From NCBI GenBank assembly GCA_016212665.1, contig JACREZ010000016.1, positions 62,001 through 126,000 on the forward strand: 64,000 nt of DNA, written 5' to 3'. The position numbers and the translations under genes are program-made. The DNA comes from Ignavibacteriota bacterium (GTDB lineage Bacteria; Bacteroidota; Ignavibacteria; UBA10030; SZUA-254). Within the stretch, counting starts at the first letter, position 1; each line of letters begins with the position of its first letter. Below are positions 3,001 through 47,500 of this stretch, in pieces. The notes below the pieces were generated by a model. It had not been told where the DNA came from and ran no database searches. It worked only from the letters and a program-made list of their open reading frames with translations.

Positions 3001-4917
3001 GTTGAATGGGAATTCTTCGTTGACCAAAATCCGATGCGATGGGATAATGCCGCCATCAGTCTTGTCATTCCGGAAAATCAAGGCACAACGTTCAACCGGC
3101 AAATTGTGAACACCGGCGGCTCGGCAATGAGCTTCGACATCACTGATTTGCCTGCATGGCTCACCGCTACACCGATGACGGGATACATTACACCTGGACA
3201 AACACAGGAAGTAACATTCACGGTGAGTCCGCAATTGGGTGGTGGCGTGTACAAAGACACGACGTTCGCGGCAACAGTACAAGGGGATGAACCGTTGCTT
3301 GTTGACTTGCGTGTTCTCTGTCCGGCGCGTGCGTGGTCAATTGACCCTTCAGAGTTTCAATACTCGATGACAATCACCGCGAAGTTGTATGTTGATGATG
3401 TGCTTTCGGAAGATACGTATGATAAGGTCGCGGCATTTGTCGGAGATGAAGTGCGCGGCATCGGGAATGTGGAATACGTTCCCGAACTTGAAACGTACGA
3501 ACTCTTCCTCTCCATCTATAGCAATCAGACGAGCGGTGAAGAGCTTTCGTTCAAGATTCTTGATGCTTCAACGTGCCGGGAACTTGGTCAGATTGTTGAG
3601 CAATATAATTTCACAGCGAACACCGTTATCGGTACGCCTCTTGTGCCGGTAACGATTTCGACGACGACACAAATTGTTCAGCAACACAGACTACCGCGCG
3701 GATGGACATGGTTTTCGTTGAACACAGTCGCTACGAGCATGTCCACCAATACGGTGCTTGGCTCTCTCTCGGCAGAAAGCGGAGACATTGTGAAAAGTCA
3801 AACAACATTTTCTCAGTTTACTCCGTCGCTTGGGTGGGTGGGAACGTTAAGCACGTTCAACAATAAATCCATGTATCAAATCAAGTTGAGTAAAGTTGAT
3901 ACGATGCTCACCATCGGTTCACCGGTGAATGTTTTCAGAGATACCATTCCGGTTGTCGTCGGGTGGAACTGGATAAGTTATCAACCGCAAGTGAGCATGA
4001 GTGTGAACTACGCGTTACAATCACTTCAGCCGCTCAACGGCGATGTAGTGAAAAGTCAGTTTGCGTATGCGCAATATGTCGGTGGCATCGGCTGGGTGGG
4101 AAGTCTTGATTACATGAATCCGAAACTTGGCTATCTGTTGAAAACCGCAAGCGCGGGACGGTTGATGTATCCGGCGGGGTTGCCGTTGGTTTATCCGTTG
4201 GCGAAGGAAAAAATATCTGATGAACCTTCGATGTTGGTCGTGCAGAATCCGCCGGAAGGGTGGGCGATTAATCCGCATGATTTCCAATACTCGATGAATA
4301 TCACTGCCATCATTACAAAGTCCGATGTTGATACGCTTGATGTTGTTGCGGCGTTTGTGAATGGAGAATGTCGCGGAGTTGTTCCTCCGTTGTACATTGA
4401 ATCTCTGAAGAAATATTATTTCTTCCTCACCACGTATAGCAATACATCGGCGGGAGAACAAGTCGAGTTCCGGTATTACGAGGCGAGCGAAAACAAGACG
4501 TATAATCTTGCTCAACAACTGACTTTTGCGGTTGACGCTGTTCATGGAGAAGTTGAATCGCCGTTTGAATTCACGCTTTCACCATCGTCTGTTGATGAAA
4601 GTCCTGAACTTCCGACACAATTTGGCTTAAGTCAAAACTATCCGAATCCTTTTAATCCATTCACAATTGTCAATTATCAATTGCCAATTGACAATTATGT
4701 AACGATTAAAGTGTACAACGTTCTCGGGGAAGAAGTTGCTACGCTTGTAGATGGAGTTCAGGAAGCCGGTTATCAATCCATACGATGGAATGCAAGAGAT
4801 AAGAACGGTCAACCGCTTTCGTCGGGAATATATTTCTACAAGATGAATGCAGGGAATCCTTCTTCTGGCACAGGACAAGGGTTCACTGATACGAAGAAGT
4901 TGATGCTGATGAGATAG
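1..4917 (+). CDS. Giant T9SS-exported multidomain surface protein, 5'-truncated by the window start
   Basis: The reading frame is open at base 1 and ends at a TAG; 1638 codons are visible. The first visible residues (VKFEGTNCFAD) align with residue 729 of the 2364-residue protein at 11551, and the remaining lengths agree (1638 against 1636). A signal peptide and probably LamG domains therefore lie upstream, and the GTG at base 1 is not the start. Visible parts in order: carbohydrate-binding-like and DPPGD regions, an SCPWE motif near residue 615, a PPDEPAVFTL module near 640, a Big_5-like Ig domain from about 905, a BACON-like domain from about 1010, a WSVNP module (about 1112), a pair of GWTWFSLN/GWNWISY repeats, a second WSVNP module (about 1421), and a sorting domain with YPNPFNP near 1547 ending in KKLMLMR. 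Exported by T9SS to the cell surface or medium (inference); ligand unknown. Confidence 0.9.
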   Translation: MKFEGTNCFADSVEILVDGMSAIPRVYTNSSGKFVAEFEPGSTHRLSAKKGNHGLIPSFLEVFHITQPVVLKQQFQDTTKRKLTGSVAGGTCRLPIGSSSRVRVQSISGCIDTTVMMNSSGSFTLNNLPPIRYLVSAAHDDAGINAQLEQQGKQFSLIDTNQNASFIYRAPLQVRVAEGLPANSCGDIVLKQGDKYIVRLFVFEDYFGNTCAIDTGKIIKDDYVTQILDKEINFINGMAYDTIQAMGPNPLPPNTWRIEYVAVDNIERSASTFQEVIVTGHRPRSQQFTTVNPMRPIMILRDPPGDKSFTSFMKDSTYSVKSKGSYLHAHGGGVEAALKLGVSLTTVSGLGFAVEFESGFRHTIGANVDFNYKYLNDSEVVRSTTFHSSYSTSPEADFIGQDGDVYIGYASNLAYGVSEVIKYDTVTCNVVISKALSMNEKNATTTYMYSERHLKQAILPQLDSLGVSPTITDSARKVYKEQAKRWRQWIQLNAEEKQTGANPQNITWDAGAIIENSYAVTDERTINWQEEWDLNEEVSLELGFEFNKAGLTTKFKQHNEFNETWGGSTVTSSAKTYTYHLEDDDAGDVHSVDVYSTKDGPYFKLWGGATSCPWESTTVKRDLAQINVFPSTAINVPPDEPAVFTLMLGNASETDEEREYKLSVEQASNPDGAIIAVNGVVIEDAISFEIPAGQQVPVTLTVSKGPTAYVYDGLEMTFESACDANISQTVQFSVQFHQSCSEIALEVVDQSSLEPWLINKVMHDTMFVKMFNYEREESNFDLVRLQFRPKGSVATAQLVNGKMILSEEMFEPLGTKHTSVQPVSMVVNKKGKGEQETESNMDTWITILEIPKDSLPQYPQTYVVVPWDVRFLADGDYELRAIAQCLGDPIVNVSTYLPGLIDRTPPQVFGVPEPGDGMYQPGDNISIMFNEHIDCSILHPMNNVKLFNAQTGLEIDKNVYCFENQVLITPNIQARFIENQTLRAKLIGVTDVYGNARDEIVEWEFFVDQNPMRWDNAAISLVIPENQGTTFNRQIVNTGGSAMSFDITDLPAWLTATPMTGYITPGQTQEVTFTVSPQLGGGVYKDTTFAATVQGDEPLLVDLRVLCPARAWSIDPSEFQYSMTITAKLYVDDVLSEDTYDKVAAFVGDEVRGIGNVEYVPELETYELFLSIYSNQTSGEELSFKILDASTCRELGQIVEQYNFTANTVIGTPLVPVTISTTTQIVQQHRLPRGWTWFSLNTVATSMSTNTVLGSLSAESGDIVKSQTTFSQFTPSLGWVGTLSTFNNKSMYQIKLSKVDTMLTIGSPVNVFRDTIPVVVGWNWISYQPQVSMSVNYALQSLQPLNGDVVKSQFAYAQYVGGIGWVGSLDYMNPKLGYLLKTASAGRLMYPAGLPLVYPLAKEKISDEPSMLVVQNPPEGWAINPHDFQYSMNITAIITKSDVDTLDVVAAFVNGECRGVVPPLYIESLKKYYFFLTTYSNTSAGEQVEFRYYEASENKTYNLAQQLTFAVDAVHGEVESPFEFTLSPSSVDESPELPTQFGLSQNYPNPFNPFTIVNYQLPIDNYVTIKVYNVLGEEVATLVDGVQEAGYQSIRWNARDKNGQPLSSGIYFYKMNAGNPSSGTGQGFTDTKKLMLMR
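4664..4700. repeat. Word-like repeat inside the T9SS sorting-domain coding sequence (copy 1)
   Basis: Directly after the YPNPFNP codons the DNA runs through overlapping CAATT words. It contains perfect 10-bp inverted arms, ATTGTCAATT (4666-4675) and AATTGACAAT (4686-4695). It is translated as VNYQLPIDNY, the first strand of the sorting domain. Confidence 0.75.

Positions 4918-47500: not shown

Follow-up and report, generated by a model that had tools for sequence, protein, structure and literature searches.

In a 64,000-nucleotide (nt) stretch of the genome of an Ignavibacteriota bacterium (assembly GCA_016212665.1, contig JACREZ010000016.1, positions 62,001 to 126,000; hereafter the window), all five tails with the motif YPNPF, which are C-terminal sorting domains of the type IX secretion system (T9SS), carry a tandem DNA word straight after YPNPFNP, as detected by Tandem Repeats Finder (TRF). 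The words are heptamers over the second β-strand of the domain (strand 2), where a 7-nt period also stands out genome-wide, and arrays of the same period are dense in the intergenic spacers. The explanation that we favor, at a probability of about 0.6, is that dispersed 7-bp repeats of the spacer kind were copied in frame into strand 2 and then kept by the fold.

A word repeat after YPNPFNP in all five domains had been proposed in an earlier sequence-only reading of the window, and the TRF array in each of them bears this out. The unit is 7 bp in four tails and 14 bp, equal to two units, in the tail of an esterase. An 8-bp unit, TTCGGATT, given by the same reading, was rejected, as TRF and lag scans both return 7 bp, with TTTCGGA as the word. 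Repeats do occur where "GTTATCA" and "CAATT" units had been placed, but both are heptamers, so the length of the CAATT unit was wrong. The encoded strands had been described as completely different; their residues do differ, but the hydrophobic positions (F/I/V, F/Y, and I/L) are kept. In the predicted structure of the domain at 44596..44853, the word-coded strand is TTNFGFRI (E15-22). The name strand 2 (s2) was set by chain order and by passages of PMC4804311 rather than by superposition, and RgpB C-terminal domain (CTD) entries were absent among the matches listed by Foldseek and VIA-align. The sorting domains have the Ig-like sandwich of known CTDs; four of the five match TIGR04183, and three exceed the PF18962 cut-off of 27 bits.

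A period of 7 nt over strand 2

The TIGR04183 profile search of the whole genome (G000) gave 150 scored matches over the cut-off from 191 candidates, a list that is incomplete because the window tail at 4639 is missing from it. From 149 motif hits in the fetched stretches, four without PNPF were removed, leaving 145 tails, and the 144 with sufficient flank were compared with 60 synonymous shuffles. In the strand segment (nt 21-63), the lag-7 self-match was 0.453, compared with 0.344 in the shuffles (z 21.9), followed by lags 14 and 21 (z 19.7 and 12.2); the six other tail segments had lag-7 z values from -2.7 to 2.9. An excess over codon-shuffled expectation had been predicted for this site and was thus found. 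Values of |z| between 5 and 7 occur at some other lags, such as z 6.7 for lag 19 in nt 63-105 and z 5.1 for lag 8 in the strand, and the exceptional signal is the lag-7 family over strand 2 only. Because the tails are related as paralogs, z is overstated; therefore, the tails were tested one by one, and 33/145 reached p ≤ 0.01 at lag 7, compared with 0 to 2 at seven other lags.

It might be supposed that an amino-acid pattern and codon bias together make this DNA look repetitive by coincidence. The protein sequence does contribute, as the lag-7 match in the strand stays elevated even in the shuffles (0.344, compared with 0.17-0.29 in the other segments); however, the observed match far above the shuffle level and the 33 individually significant tails make coincidence hardly credible, and the synonymous control refutes it as the sole cause. 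Codon bias alone was likewise rejected, on the shuffles and the tail-by-tail p values.

Strict period-7 arrays (period-7 score of at least 9 or at least 12) lie in the strand of 45/145 and 23/145 tails, respectively, and strict arrays of other periods in none. By regular expressions, the tails were sorted into word classes A (TTTCGGA; 33 tails), B (TCAGTTA and its kin; 41), C (CAATTRN; 7), and o (none of these; 64), the pattern for class B being loose, with several B tails no better than class o at lag 7. Overall, a third to half of the 145 tails have heptamer words at strand 2; the occurrence in all five window tails is no general rule, given the 64 tails in none of the three classes. Examples of class o are L054, L046, and L105 (L numbers are loci and G numbers genomes); L057, also of class o, has a further word, GTCATTN.

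The spacing from YPNPFNP to the next strand is 13 residues in 138/143 anchored tails of this genome and in 121/132 anchored tails of relatives; five rows output as 49 through misplaced anchors were read as 13. Phase variation by copy number, as in contingency repeats, was rejected on this constant spacing, which also gives no support to the earlier suggestion that slippage alters the tail at this site.

Heptamers in spacers and shared modules

Strict period-7 arrays were also counted in 224 kb (the window plus background; 23 kb intergenic and 201 kb coding sequence [CDS]), where the gene calls are greedy long open reading frames (ORFs) and hence crude. There are 13 in intergenic DNA, 6 in CDS, and 1 at an edge, three of the six in CDS being window tails, and the density per 100 kb is 56 in intergenic DNA versus 3 in CDS. 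Other periods (4-6, 8-13, and 15) have 0-2 arrays each, lag 14 being excepted as a harmonic. One CDS array, L125:19739, may be spacer: its frame has 118 aa and lacks an upstream ATG. Scores in the window stay below the gathering threshold of every Rfam family, so the arrays are not explained by a described RNA element.

As had been noted earlier, a tail word also stands in the intergenic tract before a gene starting MRIAVGITG, presumably ubiX. This is the TTTCGGA array at 61795-61825, which ends directly upstream of the start codon, an observation on this one array. Three copies of TTTCGGA are found in 11 places in this genome, 6 of them in tails, and in 8 of the 100 genomes searched, this one counted. 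An imperfect 23-bp module, TTTCGGATTGCCAATTTCGGATT, has 8 places in this genome (6 tails and 2 non-tail) and 6 in G002 of the same genus (4 tails and 2 non-tail); in G001, also of this genus (83% complete, 720 contigs), neither the module nor three copies of TTTCGGA were found. The interruptions are shared among the TTTCGGATTGCCAATTTCGGATT copies, which argues for a common origin rather than separate slippage. Three exact copies of word B have 2 places in this genome, both in tails, and among the five genomes having them, 6 of 7 places are tails. The proposed match between tail words and intergenic words holds in part: word A occurs outside tails and the spacers are rich in period-7 words, but for the exact three-copy word B no spacer copy was found in this genome.

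These data bear on in-place slippage, in which a loosely constrained strand would undergo the same 7-nt-biased polymerase slippage as the spacers, with no movement between loci. According to passages of PMC4679880 and PMC4692102, heptamers are the most frequent of the longer simple repeats in many bacteria, and a polymerase-footprint idea has been put forward; in addition, arrays are found in the tail linkers too, and two tails at L247 are longer by exactly 7 residues, or three units. Nevertheless, we regard slippage as unlikely, since the spacing is so constant and the imperfect module is common to tails and non-tail places. Identities between tails point the same way: class A pairs with downstream identity of 0.45-0.60 (233 pairs) have strand bins of 0.85/0.82, and in the next 21 nt they are no better than A-B pairs (0.67 and 0.67). 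Class B pairs in the same range (438 pairs) have lower strand bins, 0.71/0.54.

Word switching between tails

Judged from aligned tails, the words appear to move separately from the rest of the tail. Between putative orthologs of G000 and G001, word A is replaced by B or a B-like word at three of three loci; at w3, identity is 0.71 in the cargo, 0.42 in strand 2, and 0.70/0.72 downstream. At both w3 and w5, G001 has B or a B-like word and G000 and G002 have A. Between G000 and G002, a switch is seen at one of four loci, C16:31899, which has A in G000 and B in its best G002 match, with identities of 0.82 (cargo), 0.86 (linker), 0.33 (strand 2), 0.65 (next part), and 0.88 (end). Between these two genomes, strand 2 of w3 is conserved at 0.97 identity, above the 0.79 upstream of it and the 0.68 and 0.59 downstream. 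The esterase was matched in 17/30 genomes, and its own tail was found in 10/20 fetched loci: the word is A in G000 and G014, A with a palindromic insert in G002, B in G001, TCAGC-type in G023 and G028, C in G009, partial C in G006, and none in G015 and G025. That sorting tails are diversified in this way had been anticipated, and the words that switch between putatively orthologous tails do diversify the strand.

Within the genome, 21 pairs of tails with different words and downstream identity of at least 0.72 have strand bins of 0.56/0.45, with 0.82 before and 0.78 after. In L089, L074, and L057, the downstream halves are alike and the words different, visible letter by letter.

Under ordinary descent, the word tails would be old subfamilies, duplicated whole with their genes, and the word a relic of the founder. 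Some same-word tails are indeed near copies, and A/B labels are grouped on the downstream tree (11 changes versus 23.5 in 300 shuffles, minimum 16), label counts of little weight that are drawn from about 50 residues. As a full account, descent seems quite unlikely, because putative orthologs switch words with the cargo, the linker, and a good deal of the downstream region conserved, and because the three tails just named join different words to similar downstream halves.

Arrays outside strand 2

The sequence-only reading had taken the site after YPNPFNP as the one place of insertion; this was too narrow, as arrays are also present in tail linkers and, in frame, in housekeeping proteins. The linker upstream of the tails has period-7 arrays in 12/145 tails at a score of at least 9 and in 9/145 at a score of at least 12, where the downstream part has 0/145. 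Linker words differ from strand words (AAACCTG, AAATCAC, AACACCT, and others), and the linker-array loci are L008, L030, L043, L044, L047, L060, L068, L069, L080, L086, L099, and L100.

In-frame triple copies of word A also occur at residue 499 of the G020 ValRS, where the flanking domains end at 469 and start at 520, and at residue 421 of the G005 PolA, 702 of the G014 HypF, 175 of a G055 tRNA U5-methyltransferase, 499 of a G020 AcrB-type transporter, 108 of a G003 trehalase-like protein, and 395 and 385 of sodium symporters (SSF) from G000 and G003, respectively; two further cases are a G002 tail linker (residue 500) and the beginning of a G002 epimerase (residue 10). Some of these non-tail frames could be start- or stop-codon artifacts; the ValRS and PolA cases are the firmest, because they have domain matches on both sides. 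The housekeeping-gene TTTCGGA loci (L169:1500, L154, L165, L157, L151, L133, L155, and L161) are in loops or linkers. Word A is read in reverse (the IRNPKSE strand) in 9/10 scanned other ORFs and in strand 2 of 0/145 tails of this genome. It looks as if words are sorted by their peptide, with the hydrophilic reading in loops and linkers and the β reading in strand 2.

Relatives and turn inserts

For the relatives, the best 80 of 568 loci from GTDB genomes were taken, giving 135 tails. Their lag-7 excess over the strand has a z of 5.7 (133 tails); the signal is weaker than in this genome and is driven by a few genomes. Strand-2 words of relatives include CAGCTAT (L238) and GTCATTN (L174), and turn words include GTCAATR (L243) and GAAAANG (L247), with 5 and 7 extra residues, respectively. 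In the genome of L238, five of five places with three CAGCTAT copies are in tails, at strand 2; in that of L243, tails account for six of eight places with three GTCAATR copies, and the array there stands at the turn that follows strand 2.

Longer tails number 4/143 (10-15 extra residues) plus one odd case in this genome and 10/132 plus one odd case in relatives. By eye, the turn that follows their strand 2 contains palindromes or heptamers, neither of which is clear in L184:3289. Other inserts of at least 3 residues are mostly before SGVY. In-frame turn elements that look palindrome-like by eye include the GTCGAGAC type, GGCGGATCCGCC, CCTGCC..GGCAGG, GGGGCATGCCCC, and CCCCCTTTATTAAAGGGGG, at loci L069, L117, L070, L115, L255, L176, L213, L224, and L184; palindrome-like turn inserts add 3-15 residues only.

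The repeat had been suggested to be either tolerated at, or targeted to, the strand-2 site. Given the arrays in linkers and unrelated proteins, "tolerated" fits better and "targeted" less. A dedicated activity or mobile element aimed at this site might be read into the concentration of CAGCTAT and GTCAATR in tails, a tiny fraction of the genome, and into the palindromic inserts in the adjoining turn. We consider such targeting very unlikely, as arrays also occupy linkers, spacers, and unrelated proteins, and copying among paralogs would account for the density.

How heptamers may reach strand 2

Several points weigh against the copying of spacer-type heptamers into strand 2: (i) many same-word cases are plain inheritance among paralogous tails, in line with the clustered labels on the downstream tree; (ii) after thinning to below 65% downstream identity, 6/70 tails are individually significant at lag 7, and tail by tail, the relatives have 8/135 at lag 7 versus 1-5 at other lags; (iii) no tail pair identical outside the word and freshly changed inside it was found, so no copying event was caught; (iv) no spacer copy of the exact three-copy word B was found in this genome, nor were three CAGCTAT copies found outside tails in the genome of L238, so that a spacer source is putative for both; (v) orthology of the compared tails is putative, based on best match and cargo identity; and (vi) transfer may have run from spacer to tail or from tail to spacer.

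Copying remains our preferred explanation. Since 7 cannot be divided by three, an array read along one strand yields, by simple arithmetic, a single cyclic peptide of 7 residues whichever frame is used. Forward, TTTCGGA reads as FGFRISD and TCAGTTA as LSVISYQ; the other strand of TTTCGGA reads as the hydrophilic IRNPKSE. The arrival of a new word would be a rare event of template switching or short-tract recombination, and only words reading as an alternating β-strand of fixed length would survive, the 13-residue spacing probably being held by the fold. Short-tract gene conversion may then carry words from tail to tail, aided by the conserved codons on both sides of the word. Export would be expected to persist, since the T9SS recognition signal has been reported to lie within the last two strands. 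More tentatively, strand 2 might be a cassette slot in bacteria of this group, with a lineage-specific heptamer copied into dozens of tails, the spacers serving as a stock of ready-made β-strands, and the tails being diversified or kept alike in concert.

Features of the window

The arrays and domains of the window are listed in Table 1. A 69-bp tandem repeat at 51747-51912 (2.4 copies, TRF score 171) is apparently unrelated to the heptamers.

Table 1. Heptamer arrays and sorting domains in the window
Feature	Position	Strand	Details
Heptamer word CAATTGN	4664..4696	+	Tail of ORF 1-4917; TRF period 7, 4.7 copies; codes TIVNYQLPIDNY
T9SS sorting domain, class C	4639..4914	+	YPNPFNP; PF18962 25.9 bits (cut-off 27); FlgD_ig over cut-off
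Heptamer word CAGTTAT (= TCAGTTA)	18392..18411	+	Tail of ORF 11551-18645; TRF period 7, 2.9 copies, 100%; codes VISYQLPV
T9SS sorting domain, class B	18367..18642	+	TIGR04183 match C16:80367-80597; PF18962 22.1 bits, under cut-off
Heptamer word TTTCGGA	24565..24581	+	Tail of ORF 19716-24797; TRF period 7; codes NFGFRIA
T9SS sorting domain, class A	24537..24794	+	PF18962 29.1 bits; TIGR04183
Heptamer word TTTCGGA/TTTCGAA, class A	30997..31031	-	Tail of esterase ORF 30817-32256; TRF period 14
T9SS sorting domain of esterase (PF00756)	30820..31056	-	Ortholog set for word switching
Heptamer word TTTCGGA	44795..44825	-	Tail of ORF 44593-49611; TRF period 7, 4.4 copies; codes NFGFRISDFG
T9SS sorting domain, class A	44596..44853	-	PF18962 34.4 bits; modelled, pLDDT 95.3
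Intergenic TTTCGGA array, same word as class A tails	61795..61825	+	TRF x4.4, score 62, 100%; = C16:123795
Intergenic heptamer arrays GTCATTA, AATCACT	43179..43264		Period-7 score 31; TRF
Mixed heptamer arrays ATGAGCG, AATGACT, ACAAAGT, ACAAATG	26504..26689		Spacer, into start of ORF 26676-27968; TRF
Intergenic heptamer array CTGTTTC	9102..9127		TRF
Intergenic heptamer array ATTTCTG	62404..62434		TRF

Relation to known repeats

Dispersed heptamer arrays, mostly intergenic, are known from cyanobacteria as short tandemly repeated repetitive (STRR) heptamers. Direct repeats of the heptamer TAACTGA have been described in Beggiatoaceae, Cyanobacteria, and some Bacteroidetes (MacGregor 2015, PMC4679880). 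According to passages of that paper, 169 sets lie mainly just upstream of start codons, with a proposed regulatory role; the reverse complement TCAGTTA is read as LSVISYQ and predicted to form β sheets, reverse repeats are found inside 11 ORFs, and TCAATTA is a kin heptamer. As far as those passages go, the arrays here have the same 7-bp unit and mostly intergenic position, word B is the reverse complement of TAACTGA, and TCAATTA may be compared with word C; in contrast, several words are present here, many in one export-domain β-strand, and they switch between putative orthologs.

Rickettsia palindromic elements (RPE), in passages of PMC10969869 and PMC2996958, are palindromes of ~150 bp found in frame in unrelated genes, typically in unstructured parts. 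On that description, the likeness lies in dispersed repeat DNA in frame in unrelated genes (here ValRS, PolA, HypF, and others). However, the heptamer words form direct repeats, ~20-40 bp long, that replace a β-strand at constant length, and not ~150-bp palindromes. The GGGAATC/GGGGAYT heptamers of Xanthomonas and Nostoc likewise form dispersed, mostly intergenic arrays, with different words, and the passages of PMC4692102 that describe them contain no link to sorting domains. The host domain here is the T9SS CTD (TIGR04183/PF18962), with an Ig-like fold and alternating strands (PMC4804311, in part); strand-2 DNA words go unmentioned in those passages. While the dispersed heptamer is thus a known kind of repeat, its concentration in one export-domain strand, the word switching, and the filter on the strand of reading appear to be new. 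Our literature search found no report of heptamer words in a sorting-tail strand, and the three papers matched by an exact-string search were judged, from titles and abstracts, to be chance primer matches.

Implications

Heptamer repeats still lack an agreed role; these observations link them to a well-defined niche in coding sequence, and they suggest how the strand on which a word is read sorts it between β-strand and linker sites. Alignments of sorting tails call for caution, as likeness at strand 2 may be driven by repeats. With ~150 tails in one genome and different words at the same orthologous site, the sorting tails offer a natural experiment in how repetitive non-coding DNA may become part of a folded protein.

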